64,000 nucleotides of DNA from positions 62,001 to 126,000 of the forward strand of contig NZ_LT629688.1 of NCBI RefSeq assembly GCF_900101785.1, in the 5' to 3' direction. Made by a program: the position numbers and the translations under genes. This document shows positions 580-54,294 of this stretch, in pieces (the first letter of the stretch is position 1; every line of letters begins with the position of its first letter). The notes beneath the pieces were generated by a model. The model saw only the letters and a program-made list of their open reading frames with translations, was not told the DNA's origin and made no database searches. This stretch comes from Auraticoccus monumenti. GTDB lineage: Bacteria > Actinomycetota > Actinomycetes > Propionibacteriales > Propionibacteriaceae.

Positions 580-2672
580 CCACGTCCACCACCTCCCTCC
601 CGACCCGCCCGGCGTCCCCGGCACCGGCGCCGACCCCGGCGTCCGGGCCCAGCACCGCCGAGCTGGTCCGGTCCGCCGTCCCGGCCTCGTTCCGCCGCCT
701 CGACCCGCGCCACCTGGTGCGCCAGCCGGTGATCTTCGTGGTCTGGGTCGGGTCCGTCCTCGCCACGGTGCTGGCCGCGCTCGACCCGTCGCTGTTCAGC
801 ATCTCGCTGGTGGTCTGGCTCTGGCTCACCGTGCTCTTCGCCAACCTCGCCGAGGCCGTCGCGGAGGGCCGCGGACGGGCCCAGGCCGCCAGCCTGCGGG
901 CCACCCGCACCACCACCGGGGCCCGGCGCCTGGACGCCGACGGCACCGAGACCTCCGTGCCCAGCAGCGAGCTCCGCCCCGGCGACCTCGTGGTGGTCGA
1001 GGCCGGCCAGACCGTCCCCGGCGACGGCGACGTGGTCGAGGGCGTGGCCAGCGTGGACGAGTCCGCCATCACCGGCGAGTCCGCCCCGGTGATCCGGGAG
1101 TCCGGCGGTGACCGCAGCGCCGTCACCGGAGGCACCACCGTGCTCTCGGACCGGATCGTGGTCCGGATCGGCTCCGCGCCCGGGGAGTCCTTCCTGGACC
1201 GGATGATCGCCATGGTCGAGGGCGCGGACCGGCGTCGCACCCCCAACGAGGTGGCCCTCACGGTGCTGCTGTCGGCGCTGACCATCATCTTCCTGATGGC
1301 GGTGGTGACGCTGCAGCCGTTCGCCGTCTTCTCCGGGGCGACCCAGCCCGTGCTGGTGCTGGTGGCGCTGCTGGTCTGCCTGATCCCCACCACCATCGGG
1401 GCGCTGCTCTCGGCCATCGGCATCGCCGGGATGGACCGGCTGGTGCGACGCAACGTGCTGGCGCTGTCCGGGCGCGCGGTGGAGGCCGCCGGTGACGTCG
1501 GGGTGCTGCTGCTGGACAAGACCGGCACCATCACCTACGGCAACCGGCGGGCCACCGACCTGCACGCGGCCCCCGGGGTGGACCCGGCCGAGCTGGCCGA
1601 GGCCACCCGGCTGGCGTCGCTGGCCGACGAGACGCCCGAGGGCCGCTCGGTGGTCGAGCTCGTCGACGAGCGCTTCCCGACCTCCGCGGAGTCCGTCCCC
1701 GACGCCGTCGCGGCCGGCACCCCGGTGCCCTTCACCGCCGGGACGCGGATGAGCGGGGTCGACCTGGGTGCCCGGCAGATCCGCAAGGGCGCGGCCAGCA
1801 GCTGCGCGGCCTGGGTGGTCGAGCACGGGGGGGAGGTGCCGGCTGCGGTGACCGACGCCGTCGACGCCGTCTCCGCCCGCGGCGGCACCCCGCTGGTGGT
1901 GGCCGAGTGGGACGCCGAGCGCGGCTGCCCTGCCTGCTGCCTGGGCGTGGTCGAGCTGACCGACGTCGTGAAGGAGGGCATCCGGGCGCGTTTCGAGGCG
2001 CTCCGGGCGATGGGCATCCGCACGGTGATGATCACCGGTGACAACCCGCGCACCGCCCGCCACATCGCCGAGGAGGCCGGGGTCGACGACTTCCTGGCCG
2101 AGGCCAAGCCCGAGGACAAGGTCGCGCTGATCGTCGCGGAGCAGCAGAAGGGCGCCCTGGTGGCGATGGCCGGCGACGGCACCAACGACGCCCCCGCCCT
2201 GGCCAGGGCCGACGTCGGCGTGGCCATGAACACCGGGACGTCGGCGGCCAAGGAGGCCGGCAACATGGTCGACCTGGACTCCGACCCCACGAAGCTGATC
2301 GAGATCGTGGAGATCGGCAAGCAGCTGCTGATGACCCGGGGCGCGCTGACCACCTTCTCGGTGGCCAACGACGTGGCCAAGTACTTCGCGCTGGTCCCGG
2401 CCATGTTCGCCGTCGCCTTCCCCCAGCTCGCCGTCCTCGACGTGCTGCGGCTCGGGTCCCCGGAGTCGGCCATCCTCTCCGCGGTCGTCTTCAACGCGCT
2501 GGTGATCGTCGCGCTCGTCCCGCTGGCCCTGCGCGGGGTCCGCTACCGGCCGGCCTCGGCCAGCGCCCTGCTCCGTCGCAACGCGCTGGTCTACGGCGTC
2601 GGCGGGCTGGTCGCCCCGTTCATCGGCATCAAGGTCATCGACCTCGTCGTCTCCCTCTTCCCAGGAATGTGA
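576..2672 (+). CDS. kdpB: Potassium-transporting P-type ATPase subunit KdpB
   Basis: This is the catalytic P-type ATPase subunit that hydrolyses ATP to drive high-affinity K+ uptake. At 698 residues it has normal family length. The phosphorylation motif DKTGTIT begins at Asp314, the actuator motif TGES lies near residue 167, and TGDNPRTA and [11 protein letters not shown] (near residue 533) form the hinge and P domain. Hydrophobic helices flank these domains. The GTG start overlaps the kdpA stop by 4 bases and the end overlaps kdpC by 4 bases. The first 30 residues are Pro/Ser/Thr-rich and probably form a disordered cytoplasmic tail. Confidence 0.97.
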
Positions 2673-3259
2673 GCACCACCGTGAACGCCCTCCTCCGTTC
2701 GTCCCTGGCCGGTCTGCGGCTGCTCGTCGTGCTGACGCTGCTGCTCGGTCTCGCCTACCCCCTGCTGGTCCTCGGCGTGGGCCGCCTGCTGGCCCCAGAG
2801 CGGGCCGTCGGCTCGCTGGTGGAGGTCGACGGCCGGGTCGTCGGCTCGGAGCTGCTGGGCCAGCCGTTCGACGGCCCGGGCTGGTTCTGGGGACGTCCGT
2901 CCGCCGCCGGTGACGGCTACGACGGCCTCGCCTCGTCCGGCAGCAACGCCGGGCCGAACGACGCCGACCTGGTGGCGGACATCGCCGGACGGCAGGCCAC
3001 CCTGGCCGGGGCCAGCGGCGTCTCCCCCGCCGACGTCCCCGCCGACGCGGTGACCGCCTCGGCCAGCGGGCTGGATCCCGACGTCTCGCCGGAGTGGGCC
3101 GAGCTGCAGGTGCCGCGGGTGGCGGCCGAGCGCGGGCTGGGCGAGGCGCAGGTCCGTGCGGTGGTGGCCGACGCCACCCGGGGGCGGCCGCTCGGCGTCC
3201 TCGGCGAGCCGCGGGTGAACGTCCTGCTCGCCAACGCCGGGCTGGAGCGGCTCGGGTGA
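2669..3259 (+). CDS. kdpC: Potassium-transporting ATPase subunit KdpC
   Basis: KdpC is the small single-span subunit that stabilises the KdpFABC complex. The 196-residue product has one N-terminal membrane helix (about residues 13-36) followed by an extracytoplasmic domain with the family motif [15 protein letters not shown] and an SGSNAGPND segment. The start is a GTG overlapping the kdpB stop in a GTGA arrangement. Length is normal and nothing is missing. A 37-base gap with a Shine-Dalgarno-like GGAGG separates it from kdpD. Confidence 0.96.
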
Positions 3260-3296
3260 TTCACTGGCCACCGGGCACGGCGAGCGGAGGAGCACC

Positions 3297-5858
3297 GTGA
3301 CGGCGACGGCGGGTCCCCGCAGCCCACGCGACCTGGGTCGTCTGCGGGGTGAGCTGCGGGTGCTGCTCGGAGCGGCCCCCGGGGTGGGCAAGACCTACGC
3401 CATGCTCGACGAGGGGCACCGCCGCGCCGCCCGCGGCACCGACGTGGTGGTGGCGGTGGTGGAGACCCACGGCCGGCGCCGGACCGCGGAGCGGCTGGAG
3501 GGGCTGGAGGTGGTCCCCCGCCGCAGCGTCGAGCACCGCGGGACGGTGCTGGAGGAGATGGACGTCGACGCCGTGCTGGCCCGCCGACCGCAGGTGGCCC
3601 TGGTCGACGAGCTGGCCCACACCAACGCGCCCGGCTCGCGCCACCGGCGGCGCTGCGGCGACGTGGAGGAGCTGCTGGCCGCGGGGATCAGCGTGATCAC
3701 CACGGTCAACGTCCAGCACCTGGAGTCCCTCAACGACGTGGTGGCCTCGATCACCGGGGTCCGTCAGCAGGAGACCGTGCCGGACTCGGTGGTGCGGGCC
3801 GCGGACCAGGTGGAGCTGGTCGACATGGCGCCGGAGGCGCTGCGCCGGCGGCTGCTGCACGGCAACGTCTACCCGCCCGAGCGGGTGGAGGCGACGCTGT
3901 CGAGCTACTTCCGCCCCGGCAACCTGGCCGCGCTGCGCGAGCTGGCCCTGCTGTGGGTCGCGGACCGGGTGGACGCCGCCCTGGCCCTCTACCGCGACGA
4001 GCACGCCATCGCGGCGAGCTGGCCGACCCGGGACCGGGTGGTGGTGGCGCTGTCGGGTGGCCCGGAGGGTGCGGACCTGGTGCGGCGCGGCGCGCGGATC
4101 GCGGGGAAGGGCGCTGGGGGTGAGCTGCACGCGGTCTTCGTGGCCCGCAGCGACGGTCTGGTCGAGCGCGACCCGCGGGCGCTGGCCGAGCAGCGTCGGC
4201 TGGTGGAGGACCTCGACGGCAGCTTCCACACCCTGACCGGAGAGGACCCGGCCGAGGCGGTGCTCGACTACGCCCGATCGGTCAACGCCACCACGGTGGT
4301 GGTCGGGCAAAGCCGGCGCAGCCGCTGGCAGAGCCTGCTGCGGGCCCCGGTGAGCCAGCGGATCGTGGCCGGCTCGGGCGACATCGACTGCCACCTGGTC
4401 ACCCACCGCTGGGCCGGACGCGGCCAGCGCACCGTGCCGGTGCCCCTCAGCCTCCCCCGCCGGGTGGTGGCCTACGTGCTGGCCGTCGTGCTGCCGGTGG
4501 CGCTGACCGCCCTGTTCGCACTCACCCCGGGCTGGACCGAGCACGAGGTGCCGCTGCTCACCCAGCTGGCCGCCACGGTGCTGGTGGCCCTGGTGGGCGG
4601 GTTGCTGCCGGCGGTGCTGGCGGCGGTGGTCGGGAACCTGCTGGTGAACTTCTGGCTGGTCGAGCCCCGGCTGAGCCTGACCGTCGCCGACTCCCGGGAC
4701 GTCCTCTCGCTGCTGGTGTTCCTGCTGGTGGGGCTGGCGGTGTCCTCGGTGGTGCAGGCGGCGGCGCGGCGCACCCGGGAGGCCGCGGCGGCCCGGGCCG
4801 AGGCCGACACCCTGCTGGCGCTGACCCGGCACGGGCTGGCCACCGACGCCTCGGTGGCCTCGCTGCTGGAGCAGGTGCGCGACACCTTCAGCCAGCACCG
4901 CGTCGAGCTGCGGGTGCGCGACGTGCCCACCGCGCCGTGGCGGGTCGAGCACGCAGTCGGCGAGGAGGTGGGAGCGGGTGGGCCGGACGGGCAGGACCGG
5001 CCGGACCGGCCGGACACCGAGCTGCCGTTGGACGACCTCTCCGGTTTCGCCCTCTACGGACGCGGACTGACCGCGTCCGAGCAGCGGGTGCTGACCGCCT
5101 TCGGGATCCAGGCCGTGGTGCGGATGGAGCGTCGGGAGCTGGCCGAGACGGCGGCCCAGGCCGACACGCTGGCCGCCCGCAGCGCCTTCCAGACCGCACT
5201 GCTGGCCGCGGTCAGCCACGACCTGCGCACGCCGCTGGCCGCGATCAAGACGGGGCTGTCCGGGCTGGTGGACGAGGACGTCGAGCTCGACCCGGCGACG
5301 CGGCGTGAGCTGCTGCTGGTGGTGCAGCGCAGCGCGGAACGGCTCGAGCGGCTGGTGGCGAACCTGCTCGACATGACCCGGATCCAGATGACCTCACCGG
5401 CCCCCGAGCTGGACGCGGTGCTGGTGGACGAGGTGGTCCGCGCGGCGGTGCACGCGCTCCCGCACGTGGCCGGTCGGGTGGAGCTGGCACGGTCGGAGCT
5501 GCTGGTGCGCACCGATCCCGGGCTGGTCGAGCGGGTGGTGGCCAACGTGGTCGACAACGCGGTGCGCCATCAGCCCGAGGGGTCGCCGGTGGAGGTGCGC
5601 TACGAGGCGGACGGGGACCGGGTGCGGGTGCTGGTGGTCGACCGCGGACCGGGGATCAGCCGGGAGCGCCGCGAGCAGGTGTTCCAGCCCTTCCAGCGTC
5701 TCGGCGACCGGCCGGCGCGGGCCGGGGTGCCCGAGGGGCTGGGTCTGGGGCTGGCCGTGGCCAGCGGGTTCGCCGCTAGCGTGGGGGCCACCCTGACGCC
5801 CACGGACACGCCAGGCGGAGGACTGACCATGGTGATCGACCTGCCGGCGGCCCGGTGA
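3297..5858 (+). CDS. kdpD: Sensor histidine kinase KdpD
   Basis: Membrane histidine kinase that senses K+/turgor and phosphorylates KdpE. The order is: N-terminal KdpD domain with Walker A GAAPGVGKT (about residues 22-30), a universal-stress-protein-like domain (about 245-365), a four-helix DUF4118 membrane block (about 390-490), a GAF-like linker, HisKA with SHDLRTPL where the phospho-acceptor is His641, and HATPase with NVVDNAVRH and GLGLGLAV. It has 853 residues against about 890 in E. coli. The GTG start at 3297 follows GGAGG by 5 bases. The end overlaps kdpE by 4 bases. Confidence 0.96.
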   Translation: MTATAGPRSPRDLGRLRGELRVLLGAAPGVGKTYAMLDEGHRRAARGTDVVVAVVETHGRRRTAERLEGLEVVPRRSVEHRGTVLEEMDVDAVLARRPQVALVDELAHTNAPGSRHRRRCGDVEELLAAGISVITTVNVQHLESLNDVVASITGVRQQETVPDSVVRAADQVELVDMAPEALRRRLLHGNVYPPERVEATLSSYFRPGNLAALRELALLWVADRVDAALALYRDEHAIAASWPTRDRVVVALSGGPEGADLVRRGARIAGKGAGGELHAVFVARSDGLVERDPRALAEQRRLVEDLDGSFHTLTGEDPAEAVLDYARSVNATTVVVGQSRRSRWQSLLRAPVSQRIVAGSGDIDCHLVTHRWAGRGQRTVPVPLSLPRRVVAYVLAVVLPVALTALFALTPGWTEHEVPLLTQLAATVLVALVGGLLPAVLAAVVGNLLVNFWLVEPRLSLTVADSRDVLSLLVFLLVGLAVSSVVQAAARRTREAAAARAEADTLLALTRHGLATDASVASLLEQVRDTFSQHRVELRVRDVPTAPWRVEHAVGEEVGAGGPDGQDRPDRPDTELPLDDLSGFALYGRGLTASEQRVLTAFGIQAVVRMERRELAETAAQADTLAARSAFQTALLAAVSHDLRTPLAAIKTGLSGLVDEDVELDPATRRELLLVVQRSAERLERLVANLLDMTRIQMTSPAPELDAVLVDEVVRAAVHALPHVAGRVELARSELLVRTDPGLVERVVANVVDNAVRHQPEGSPVEVRYEADGDRVRVLVVDRGPGISRERREQVFQPFQRLGDRPARAGVPEGLGLGLAVASGFAASVGATLTPTDTPGGGLTMVIDLPAAR

Positions 5859-44391: not shown

Positions 44392-44427
44392 ACGAGGGCC
44401 CCGGGACTCTCGTCCCGGGGCCCTCGT
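44392..44427 (-). terminator. Terminator hairpin of clpC (16-bp perfect stem)
   Basis: A 16-bp perfectly paired GC-rich stem with a TCTC loop starts 24 bases past the clpC stop. There is no U-tract. Confidence 0.85.
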
Positions 44428-47220: not shown

Positions 47221-47256
47221 CTCCGGCGCCCCGGTCGGGTGACCGGGGCGCCGGAG
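47221..47256 (-). terminator. Terminator hairpin of lsr2 (16-bp perfect stem)
   Basis: A 16-bp perfectly paired stem of CTCCGGCGCCCCGGTC and its complement with a 4-base loop lies 45 bases after the lsr2 stop; no U-tract is present. Confidence 0.85.
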
Positions 47257-50089: not shown

Positions 50090-50932
50090 TCACCCCCGGC
50101 GCAGGCGGCGGACCACTCCCAGGGCGTCCACGTGGGCCCGGACCTCGTGGGTGCGGACCCCCCAGGCCCCCGCTGCGGCCACCAGGGCGGTGAGGGCGAG
50201 CGCGGCCCCGTCACGCCCGTCGGTGGGGCGGGGCTCCCCCGTCGCCGGGTCGGCCAGCAGGGCCCCCAGGAACCTCTTGCGCGAGACGCCGACCAGGACC
50301 CGGTGGCCGAGGGAGGTGAGCGCCTCCAGGTGGGCCAGCAGCCGCCAGTTGTGGTCGGCGGTCTTGGCGAACCCGATGCCCGGGTCCAGGACCACGCGGT
50401 CCGGGTCGATCCCGGCGGCGGTGGCCGCCTGGACGCGGGCCAGCAGCTCGGCGCGGACCTCGGCGACGACGTCGTCGTAGGTGGCCGCAGCGGCCATGGT
50501 GTCGGAGTGGGCGCGCCAGTGCATGGCGACGTAGTCGACGTCGAGCCCGGCGACCGTCGGGAGCATGTCGGGGTCGGCCAGCCCGCCGGAGACGTCGTTC
50601 ACCACCACCGCACCGGCCTCGGCACAGGCCCGGGCCACGCCGGCGCGCATGGTGTCCACCGACACCGCCACGCCCTCGGCGGCCAGGTCCCGCACCACCG
50701 GCAGCACCCGGCCCAGCTCCACCTCCGCGTCCACCCGGGAGGCCCCCGGTCGAGTCGACTCCCCGCCGACGTCCACCAGAGCCGCCCCCTCGTCCCGCAG
50801 GGCGAGCCCGTGCCCCACCGCGGCCCGGTGGTCCAGCCACTGACCCCCGTCGGAGAACGAGTCCGGCGTCACGTTGAGGACCCCCATCACCACGGGCCCG
50901 TCCTCCGCCCCCGGCACGCGCGGGACAGTCAT
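50090..50932 (-). CDS. folP: Dihydropteroate synthase
   Basis: Condenses pterin pyrophosphate with p-aminobenzoate; target of sulfonamides. The 280-residue TIM barrel has MGVLNVTPDSFSDGG (about residues 16-30), VDVGGESTRPGA, VVNDVSGG, LDPGIGFAKTADHNW and LVGVSRKRFLG. ATG at 50932 is selected by family alignment; the open frame above it is non-coding. The gene is separated from the upstream folE by 624 bases holding an unusual inverted-repeat element. Confidence 0.95.
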   Translation of the reverse strand: MTVPRVPGAEDGPVVMGVLNVTPDSFSDGGQWLDHRAAVGHGLALRDEGAALVDVGGESTRPGASRVDAEVELGRVLPVVRDLAAEGVAVSVDTMRAGVARACAEAGAVVVNDVSGGLADPDMLPTVAGLDVDYVAMHWRAHSDTMAAAATYDDVVAEVRAELLARVQAATAAGIDPDRVVLDPGIGFAKTADHNWRLLAHLEALTSLGHRVLVGVSRKRFLGALLADPATGEPRPTDGRDGAALALTALVAAAGAWGVRTHEVRAHVDALGVVRRLRRG

Positions 50933-51556
50933 CACGCCACCCACCTCGCACCGGCCACGAGCACTCCCCCACGTCCACTCGGGATGACGCCCGGCCCCGA
51001 CTCGGCCGTCGGAGAGGCGACTCGCCCCGTCCTGTCGCGACCCACCTGCTCCGGAGCGACCACTGACGGCCACTCGCCACACGACCTGGAACCGTGGTTG
51101 GCCAGGTAGGCCAGCCACGTGCCACGGTCGACCGGCCACCTGGGGCCGTCACACGGCATGCCGCGCGCGACACGTCCAGGCAGGGCGGCGGACGACCCGT
51201 CACCGGCCTCCCCCGGCCAGCACGTCCGCCTCCCGGCCGCGGTGATCACGGGTCCCGCCGTCCCAGATCCAGCCCGAGGCTCGACCAGGGTGACGGTCCA
51301 GCCGGCACGGGGTCGGCTGCGGGGCCCGGCGACGCACCCAGGGCCATCCAGCTCGTCCTCGCGGTCGCGACAGAGCACAGACCCAACACTGGGCAGCCGC
51401 CAGAGCGGAAGGGGCTCCGGGGTGGGTGTCGGGGTGTGGCGGGCGTTGGGAGAACTCTTCCGAGGGACGAGGAAGAGGCTCGACCGGGCGGGACACCCAC
51501 CCCGGAGCCCCTTCCGCGCACCCACAGACGCCTCCCGAGGCCTCAAGACAGGAGCC
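50933..51556. other. 624-base non-coding gap between folE and folP
   Basis: No gene is supported, although spurious frames cross it. It holds the folP leader, a smaller nested stem (ACCGTGG/CCACGGT at 51091-51128 with an inner TGGCC/GGCCA), and the large inverted repeat at 51405-51517. In most Actinobacteria folE and folP lie much closer. Confidence 0.7.
51405..51517. repeat. 113-bp element with 26-bp perfect terminal inverted repeats
   Basis: The left arm (51405-51430, starting GCGGAAGGGGCTCCGG) is perfectly complementary to the right arm (51492-51517). The 61-base centre contains a second, smaller stem CTCTTCC/GGAAGAG (51455-51477). The element begins 40 bases after the folE stop on the minus strand. 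It could be a strong terminator or processing signal between folE and folP, or a MITE-like insertion; no direct target duplication is visible. Confidence 0.85.
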
Positions 51557-52192
51557 TCACGACCGCGCGATCAGCGCCATGGCCTCAGCACGCGTGGCCG
51601 GGTCCCGCAGCTGGCCGCGCACCGCGCTGGTGACCGTCCGCGACCCCGCCTTGCGGACCCCGCGCATCGTCATGCAGAGGTGCTCGCAGTCGATCACCAC
51701 GATGACGCCACGCGGGGAGAGGTGCTCGACCAGGGCGTCGGCGATCTGGGTGGTGAGCCGCTCCTGCACCTGGGGGCGCTTGGCGAAGAGGTCGACCAGC
51801 CGGGCCAGCTTGCTCAGGCCGGTGATCTTGCCGCCCGCGCCGGGGATGTAGCCCACGTGGGCCTTGCCGGTGAACGGCACCAGGTGGTGCTCGCAGGAGC
51901 TCCAGACCTCGATGTCGGTGACCAGCACCAGCTCGTCGTGGCTCAGCTCGAAGGTGGTGCTGAGGACGTCGGCGGGGTCGGCGTGCAGACCGGAGAACAT
52001 CTCGGCGTAGGCCCGGGCGACCCGGGCGGGGGTGTCGAGCAGCCCGTCGCGGTCGGGGTCCTCGCCGATGCCGATCAGCAGCTCGCGGACGGCCGCGGCC
52101 ACCCGGGCGTGGTCGAAGCCGGGCGGCTGGGTCGGCTCGACGGGGCTCGGCTGGGAGCGGGCCGTCAGCGGCGAGGGTGCGTGGTCGTCCAT
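51557..52192 (-). CDS. folE: GTP cyclohydrolase I
   Basis: First enzyme of pterin synthesis (GTP to dihydroneopterin triphosphate), 211 residues. Zinc ligands are Cys in [11 protein letters not shown] with its His, and Cys in [45 protein letters not shown] is the family core. The N-terminal 30 residues are Pro/Ser-rich and poorly conserved. ATG at 52192 lies 5 bases after the ftsH stop, so the two are likely co-transcribed. Confidence 0.96.
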
Positions 52193-52197
52193 GGCGG

Positions 52198-54294
52198 TCA
52201 GCGCAGCGGACCCTGGGGACCCTGCGGGTTCTCCGGGCCGAGACCGCCGGGGGCGCCGGGCTGCTGCCAGCCGGGCAGGCCGCCGTCCTGGCCACCGGGC
52301 TGCTCGTTCTCCCCCGGGTGGTGCCCGGGGGGCAGCGCGGCGCCGCCGGCGGGGTGCTCGACCTGGGGGGTGGAGCCGTTGGTCTGCGGCGGGCGGACCG
52401 GCGGCAGCTGCGAGGGCACCCGTGCGTCGGAGCCGGTCCAGGCCGGGCGCTGGGGCCAGCGCTGCAGGGCCTCGAAGATCTTGGCCACCTGTGCCTTGTC
52501 CAGGGTCTCCTTCTCGAAGAGCTGGCGGACCAGCTCGTCGAGGACGTGGCGGTTGGTGGTCAGGACGTCGAAGGCCTCCTGGTGGGCGGTGTTGATCAGC
52601 GTCGCCACCTCCTGGTCGACCACGGCGGCCAGCTCCTGGGAGTAGTCCCCTCCGGTGCCGCCACCCATCTCGCGGCCGAGGAAGGGCTCGTGGTCGCCGG
52701 AGCCGAGCCGGATGGCGCCGATCCGGGAGCTCATGCCGTACTGGGTGACCATCGCCTTGGCGACCTTGGTGGCCTTCTCGATGTCGTTGCTGGCGCCGGT
52801 GGTCGGGTCGTGGAAGACCAGCTCCTCCGCGGCGCGGCCGCCGAGCATGTAGGCCAGCTGGTCCAGCAGCTCCCCGCGGGTGTTGGAGTACTTGTCGCTG
52901 TCGGGCATCACCATCGTGTAGCCGAGGGCGCGACCGCGCGGCAGGATCGTCACCTTCTGCACCGGGTCGGTGCCGGGCATCGCCGCGGCGACCAGGGCGT
53001 GGCCGCCCTCGTGGTAGGCGGTGATCAGTCGCTCGCGCTCGTTCATCAGGCGGGTGCGCTTCTGCGGGCCGGCGATGACGCGGTCGATGGCCTCGTCCAG
53101 GTCGGCGTTGGTGATGGTGCGCTTGTTGGCGCGGGCGGTCAGCAGGGCCGCCTCGTTGAGCACGTTGGCCAGGTCGGCACCGGTGAAGCCGGGGGTGCGG
53201 CGGGCCACCGAGGCGAGGTCGACGGCCGGGTCGACCGGCTTGCCCTGGGCGTGCACCTTGAGGATCTGCAGGCGACCGTTCATGTCGGGGGCCTCGACGG
53301 CGATCTGGCGGTCGAAGCGGCCGGGACGCAGGAGCGCGGGGTCCAGCACGTCGGGACGGTTCGTCGCGGCGATCAGGATGACCCCGCCGCGGACGTCGAA
53401 GCCGTCCATCTCCACCAGCAGCTGGTTCAGGGTCTGCTCGCGCTCGTCGTGACCGCCACCCATGCCGGCGCCGCGGTGGCGTCCCACGGCGTCGATCTCG
53501 TCGATGAAGACGATGGCCGGGGCGTTCTCCTTGGCCTGCTCGAACAGGTCGCGGACGCGGGAGGCACCCACACCGACGAACATCTCGACGAAGTCGGAGC
53601 CGGAGATGGAGAAGAAGGGGACGCCGGCCTCACCGGCGACGGCGCGGGCCAGCAGCGTCTTGCCGGTCCCGGGCGGGCCGTAGAGCAGGACGCCCTTGGG
53701 GATCTTGGCGCCGACCGCCTGGAACTTCGCCGGCTCGGCCAGGAACTCCTTGATCTCCTCGAGCTCCTCGATCGCCTCCTCGCAGCCGGCGACGTCGGCG
53801 AAGGTCGACTTCGGCGTGTCCTTGTTGGCCACCTTGGCCTTGGACTTGCCGAACTGCATGACCCGGCCGCCGCCGCCCTGGACGGAGTTGATCAGGAAGA
53901 AGAAGAGGGCGCCGATGATGATGAACGGGATCAGCGTGGTGAGCAGGGTGCCGATGAAGCTGGGCTGGGGGTTCTCACCCACCCACTCGTCCAGCGTCCC
54001 CTCCGCGACCCGCTCGTTCAGCCGGTCGATGATCTGCCCGCTCTGCCCGCCGACCCAGACCGCCTTGAGCTTGGTCGGCTCGCCCTCGGGGCGCTCCAGC
54101 AGGATCTGCTGCTCGCCGTCGCGCAGGGTCACCTTGGTCAGCGGCTCGTCACCGTTGATCACGGCCACGACCTCCGAGGTCGGGGTCTCGCGGTAGGAGT
54201 TCGATGAGTCGAAGAAGTCCAGGGCGACCACCACGACGATCATCGCGAGGATGATCCACAGGAAGGGCCCACGGAGGATGCGCTGAAAGTTCAT
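52198..54294 (-). CDS. ftsH: ATP-dependent zinc metalloprotease FtsH
   Basis: Membrane-anchored AAA+ protease that degrades unassembled and regulatory proteins. The 698-residue protein has two membrane helices (about residues 9-27 and 115-135) around a periplasmic-side domain, Walker A GPPGTGKT at 206-213, [17 protein letters not shown] pore and the zinc site HEGGH at 428-432. The C-terminus is a Pro/Gly/Gln-rich tail of about 75 residues. ATG at 54294 begins [16 protein letters not shown]. Transcription probably begins at a TAGGGT box about 70 bases upstream. Confidence 0.97.

Follow-up and report, generated by a model that had tools for sequence, protein, structure and literature searches.

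A dispersed hairpin family of the Propionibacteriaceae with a copy between folE and folP of Auraticoccus monumenti

Introduction

Why does a long, perfectly matched hairpin stand between two folate genes of Auraticoccus monumenti that overlap each other in a sister species? The initial annotation of the window (the whole 64,000-nucleotide stretch of DNA analyzed here) had pointed to an inverted repeat in this gap and had offered two readings of it, a young insertion or a strongly selected RNA structure that uncouples folE from folP. The matter is of wider interest: how long perfect hairpins persist while their sequence changes is a matter of RNA and DNA evolution that PMC8794818 describes as unsettled. 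The goal of this analysis was to determine what the element is, how widely it occurs, and how its arms have come to match.

Results

The hairpin between folE and folP

The element was found as first described: it is 113 bp long, its outer arms are complementary at 26 of 26 positions, and its 61-nt center bears a smaller stem of its own (Table 1). The length given for the gap, about 624 bases from the end of folE to the start of folP, was also confirmed. Among the 25 longest listed of the 61 inverted-repeat pairs in the window, this element ranked first, and the next perfect repeats had arms of 16 bp. RNA folding of the element with short flanks gave a z-score of −5.6 on the folE strand and −6.5 on the opposite strand; on each strand none of 200 dinucleotide shuffles folded as well. 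A consensus scan of positions 50900 to 52300 found no U-tract or intrinsic terminator at the element and no sigma-70-like promoter in that interval, the scan covering actinobacterial promoters poorly.

Table 1. Features of the folE–folP hairpin and the adjoining genes (window coordinates)
Feature	Positions	Strand	Remarks
Whole hairpin element	51405..51517	−	Read on the folE strand (core strand)
5' outer arm, 26 nt	51492..51517	−	Perfect complement of 51405–51430
3' outer arm, 26 nt	51405..51430	−	Pairs with 51492–51517
Core 5' conserved unpaired strand CCGCCC, right after the arm's GTC	51486..51491	−	Conserved among copies
Inner hairpin 5' side, 7 nt	51471..51477	−	Changed jointly with its partner side relative to other copies
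Inner hairpin 3' side, 7 nt	51455..51461	−	Changed jointly with its partner side relative to other copies
Core 3' conserved unpaired strand AACGCCCGCCACACCCC	51431..51447	−	Conserved among copies
folE (GTP cyclohydrolase I)	51557..52192	−	Stop codon 40 bp upstream of the element; named from sequence and context
folP (dihydropteroate synthase)	50090..50932	−	About 470 bp past the element; named from the motif NVTPDSFSDG and context

The possibility that the whole 620-base gap is one repeated insertion was rejected: outside the element no long second copy was found, and only a 74-base stretch (51007–51080) resembles another repeat family. Identity there is 72–79%, and that family has several tandem copies at C1:1664215–1664808 and one at 3039991 of the same genome.

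Family size and distribution

A DNA search of the A. monumenti genome (a single 4.46-Mb contig) returned seven full-length copies, and a covariance model built from these seven located 11 places in the same genome. Model R1 had matches in 5 of 116 genomes, A. monumenti included. A second model, built from 17 copies, matched 9 of the 391 genomes of the order, all of them within the Propionibacteriaceae; against 396 phylum-wide genomes it matched the A. monumenti genome alone. The total is 33 copies in nine genomes, 22 of them in the eight relatives: A. monumenti has 11, A. cholistanensis (G001) and genome G039 have six each, G264 and G040 have three each, and single copies occur in G118, G360, G015, and G003. 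Because searches of more than 40 genomes used stricter filters and scored few candidates per genome, the numbers in relatives are lower bounds, and distant forms may be missed because the wide-search model was built from copies found earlier. A pattern scan of the genome contigs gave six stretches, of which the four from A. cholistanensis are true copies; those from Pseudofrankia and Bauldia lack the core, had no model match at an E-value of 0.001, and were rejected.

The initial annotation had proposed a search for the arm in this genome and in relatives, and had called the element MITE-like and possibly undescribed. The copies found in both places bear out a dispersed, MITE-like element, and 11 copies in one genome, together with the shuffle controls, rule out an ordinary or chance palindrome. 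So far it also appears undescribed: neither Rfam nor the open-access literature searched yielded a description of the hairpin family. With Rfam 15, the window region gave three weak microRNA-precursor matches, all below the gathering score, and eight loci with copies gave one tRNA and nothing else; a known RNA family was rejected in the absence of any match at the gathering score. Spread by plasmids or phages was likewise rejected, positions 51385–51537 having no match in plasmid and phage collections.

Anatomy of the unit

The unit measures about 110 bp and, in the orientation of the folE strand, consists of a C, an outer arm running to GTC, a CCGCCC-like strand, the inner hairpin, an ACGCCC(G/A)CCAC-like strand, the GAC arm, and a T. 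The 11 copies in the A. monumenti genome span about 80–120 bp. In the 32 copies with both flanks, arm length was 10–29 bp, mostly 17–29 and most commonly 26. Arms were short in o1185b, o1186c, and G039f, which pair over 10–11 bp, and in A69, which pairs over 19 bp. The bases with which each arm meets the core (GTC/GAC) are conserved among copies. At the outer end the last dinucleotide was GC in 19 of 32 copies and GG in 10, a C preceded the 5' arm in 23, and a T followed the 3' arm in 26 of 32, against a local T background of 17%. Short flanks outside the arms tend to be common to the Auraticoccus copies (by eye). Among genera, the inner hairpin differs in both length and sequence, and copy A40 lacks it. 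Three copies (o1185a–c) stand in tandem behind lysS (L037 3253–3655), two of them with shortened pairing arms.

Arm sequences differ while pairing is kept

Copies were aligned in columns anchored by the core. In the first seven copies, 221 pair cells contained 37 double and no one-sided changes. In 17 copies, 416 pair cells contained 90 double and no one-sided changes, and 98.8% were paired; shuffle controls gave a mean of 74.5% paired and 21.8 double changes, and controls in which the arms were slid gave at most 54.6% paired and 16 double changes. The covariation score was 0.588 for the 17 copies, compared with a shuffle mean of 0.119 and slid controls of 0.099 or less. These pairing counts arise partly by construction, because the arms were located through complementarity, an objection that the slid controls answer in part.

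The same pattern was seen in individual sets of copies. The two Auraticoccus species have an identical 61-nt core at cydDC, with arms that differ yet remain paired. Four copies of G039 have most of their arm sequence in common, and where they differ, a change in one arm is matched in the other; in copy G039f the 3' arm is disturbed. Two copies of G264 have a common outer arm and 3' flank and different inner arms, each self-complementary, and the three copies of G040 have near-identical cores with unrelated arms and flanks. Several of the G039 copies (loci L104, L107, L110, and L112) have a short palindromic repeat (GTCATCCCGGCG..CGCCGGGATCTC-like) in their vicinity (by eye).

The first reading of the perfect arms as a mark of a young insertion is not supported by these results. 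The copies inside cydDC and behind nagB are perfect or near-perfect, and their arms differ between the species. Because copies at a shared site have matched but differing arms, we conclude that complementary arms are a lasting feature of this family and do not indicate a recent insertion.

Placement relative to genes

Of the 33 copies, 25 follow a stop codon at a distance of 4–123 bp and lie on the strand of that gene. When positions and strands were drawn at random from the intergenic DNA of the same loci, 12.6% fell within 125 bp in this orientation (p 2e-16). Four more copies lie on the gene's strand further downstream. Three are antisense: two inside cydDC at one shared site, and o4397 upstream of an aldo-keto reductase-like gene. 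For copy G039a no clear upstream gene was called; gene positions came from a codon-usage gene-calling script that may miss genes, in particular around this copy.

The genes upstream are diverse. By NCBIfam, a first set comprised nagB, sucB, lysS, yebC, a sigma factor, pcrA, rpsD, and clpX, and a second set leuB, alaS, infB, gyrB, trmD, acnA, uvrB, glpC, ffh, and ddl. An upstream GlpD-like protein matched NCBIfam below the cut-offs only, and an upstream response regulator had no NCBIfam match at the E-value used. Two perfect 16-bp hairpins with 4-nt loops are found elsewhere in the window, at 44392–44427 (24 bp behind clpC) and 47221–47256 (44 bp behind an lsr2-like gene); both are likely to be plain terminators.

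In the cydDC gene, CydD (residues 3–523) and CydC (residues 696–1184) are fused in one open frame, and the copy sits antisense in the linker, at about residues 655–689. The frame is open in both Auraticoccus species, and the internal gaps that separate their sequences near the element are multiples of three (counted by eye). The fused gene with its translated antisense copy occupies locus L011 407–4048 and locus L043 about 1148–4579.

Sites compared between species

The folE and folP genes of A. cholistanensis overlap, leaving no gap, and the element is absent there. At this site the element is thus specific to the A. monumenti lineage. The description of the operon as normally compact held for A. 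cholistanensis, the closest relative. In nine relatives' folE loci, folP stood directly behind folE in four. In two others the folP motif was 1.3–1.5 kb away, and in three no folP motif was present within 1.5 kb of folE.

At a second site, the convergent SDR and DUF4032 genes, separated by less than 20 bp in A. cholistanensis, have about 890 bp between them in A. monumenti, where two copies face each other. The spacer of these copies contains about three tandem units of about 40 bp (L015 about 2600–2800, C1:2500.1–2500.3 kb; by eye). Because the gaps in the A. monumenti genome gained more DNA than the element, the event was no clean 113-bp insertion. A. cholistanensis carries the element at the response-regulator site, where A. 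monumenti has a plain hairpin, and also behind pcrA, where A. monumenti has no copy. In a pairwise comparison, only the positions inside cydDC and behind nagB were common to both Auraticoccus species.

Which strand folds

Mismatches within the arms were examined for the strand that pairs. Read on the gene strand, 737 arm pairs contained 13 mismatches: 11 A·C, no G·U, and two of other kinds. With G039d and G039e treated as one copy, A·C was seen in nine copies and G·U in none (p 0.004). Among plain hairpins behind genes, the counts were nine G·U and four A·C; this set is small (n = 21), one of its members was counted from both strands, and one is the inner hairpin of a family copy. The A·C excess on the gene strand is opposite to the pattern expected if a hairpin in the sense RNA were under selection, and so counts against that simple explanation. 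The opposite strand gave the more stable fold in all but one of the 33 copies, the exception being a tie, a difference that is no independent evidence because it is partly due to the G-rich loop of that strand.

Discussion

The element is a member of a dispersed Propionibacteriaceae hairpin family. We lean towards the view that this family serves as a 3'-end structure, or is tolerated as one, and that selection, template switching, or both keep its arms matched. On transcription of folE, the arms would fold into a very stable hairpin, which would end or protect the folE message and so separate folE from folP. The arms would stay matched through selection for the hairpin plus template-switch correction, one arm being re-copied from the other in replication, and the core would be maintained because something recognizes it. 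Template switching in replication has been proposed to create and repair RNA hairpin stems in one step (PMC8794818). The lack of one-sided states and the rewritten arm segments fit template switching; selection fits them too. From position and stability only, we infer a transcription end at the element; the suggested uncoupling of folE from folP is plausible, as judged from position. Counted against a 3'-end role are the lack of a terminator in the consensus scan, the A·C excess, the copies that are not intact, and those that are antisense or unplaced. The initial choice between insertion and selected structure loses its exclusiveness, the data being compatible with both.

A structured mobile hairpin is a possibility that we hold more tentatively. 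In such an element the core and ends would be recognized and the arms would be free, being rewritten by template switching as reverse complements, and the G-rich strand would fold; if this were true, the family would be a natural record of hairpin self-correction. It is rather unlikely that the element is simply selfish, a nonautonomous MITE-like unit without host function that is moved by some enzyme and survives mainly behind genes, where it does least harm. The scattered copies, the sites occupied in one sister species only, and the preferred ends would suit such a unit, as would an insertion that landed in the CydDC linker and the recent G039 copies, whose common sequence, on one side or on both, stops at or just past the end of the arm. 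However, there was no excess of flanking direct repeats that would signal target-site duplication (mean 2.97 vs 2.87 in shuffled pairings, p 0.39), and a search with PF01797 found no Y1 transposase in A. monumenti or A. cholistanensis. Tolerance alone is also not obviously enough to explain the strict strand preference or the identical cydDC core.

That the working strand is the opposite one (window plus strand), as an antisense RNA or as a single-stranded DNA hairpin of the G-rich strand, seems improbable to us. The A·C mismatches of the gene strand would become G·U pairs there, and the fold, with its G-rich loop, is the stabler one; on the other hand, it is by the gene strand that the 25 copies behind stop codons are positioned, no sigma-70-like promoter was found in the interval scanned (by a scan poorly suited to actinobacteria), and the inner hairpin of G360 has two G·U on the gene strand, with A·C in G264b and G264c (by eye, and few). 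A vertically inherited, nonmobile class of regulatory or terminator RNA with a recognized apical domain is more doubtful still. It would account for the covariation, the conserved core, the location behind genes, the two positions common to the Auraticoccus species, and the response-regulator site with its plain hairpin in one species and element in the other, but not for the fact that just these two positions match in the pairwise comparison, that A. cholistanensis lacks both gap and element at two A. monumenti sites, or that copies stand behind unrelated genes in different genera. We give very little credence to a mobile core that inserts into the loops of existing terminator hairpins, so that the arms would be those of the host gene. 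Plain perfect hairpins of 13–16 bp do occur behind some A. monumenti genes, and the three G040 copies combine unrelated arms with matching cores; against it, copies in G039 and G264 have arm sequence in common, wholly or partly, the end bases and arm length are nonrandom, and the inner end of the arm is conserved.

The hairpin family may serve as a marker of gene ends and may preserve a record of the way hairpins are kept matched in the cell. It offers 33 copies, a core as anchor, many arm states, and no one-sided change in 416 cells, and because it combines these features, selection and template switching could be separated by resequencing and by engineered copies.

Among known systems, MITEs and other short palindromic repeats are close in form. 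A review (PMC10969869) covers ERIC, Correia, RUP, SPRITE, and QMITE elements, some of which lie in 3' untranslated regions or resemble terminators. The present family resembles such MITEs in being short, dispersed, multicopy, mostly intergenic, and bounded by inverted-repeat arms, with no transposase gene of its own; terminal inverted repeats of 10–29 bp are found in 32 copies. Unlike those of MITEs, its arms have no consensus: they vary between most copies, are mostly copy-specific in sequence, and are self-complementary, and conservation is confined to the core, the end bases, and the inner end of each arm. REPs, as described in PMC3733652, are palindromic and dispersed, often downstream of coding regions and in some cases inside genes, with stems of 5–13 bp and a GTAG or CGTC tag. 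Our family is likewise palindromic, dispersed, and located behind genes, but its arms are mostly 17–29 bp and enclose a structured core, and inspection by eye of the flanks of 32 copies showed no consistent GTAG or CGTC tag at the base of the stem. The RAYT-type Y1 domain (PF01797) was detected in one of nine carrier genomes (G039) and in one of 16 non-carriers (G008), and a RAYT-mobilized REP was rejected for A. monumenti, whose genome has no Y1 transposase. Rickettsia palindromic elements, of about 110–150 bp, can sit in frame inside protein genes, according to PMC10969869. They are matched here in size and by the in-frame CydDC copy, but only 2 of 33 copies are within a gene and most are behind genes.

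A GC-rich hairpin just downstream of a gene, the hallmark of an intrinsic terminator, is what 25 of the 33 copies present, within 125 bp and co-directional. Actinobacterial intrinsic terminators without a U-tract (TRIT, I-shaped) likewise place a GC-rich hairpin shortly behind stop codons. The family shares this arrangement with them, but adds a conserved apical core and longer arms, is present sporadically, and has copies between genes such as gyrB and gyrA. For high-GC actinobacteria, the family provides a candidate for a class of 3'-end structures.
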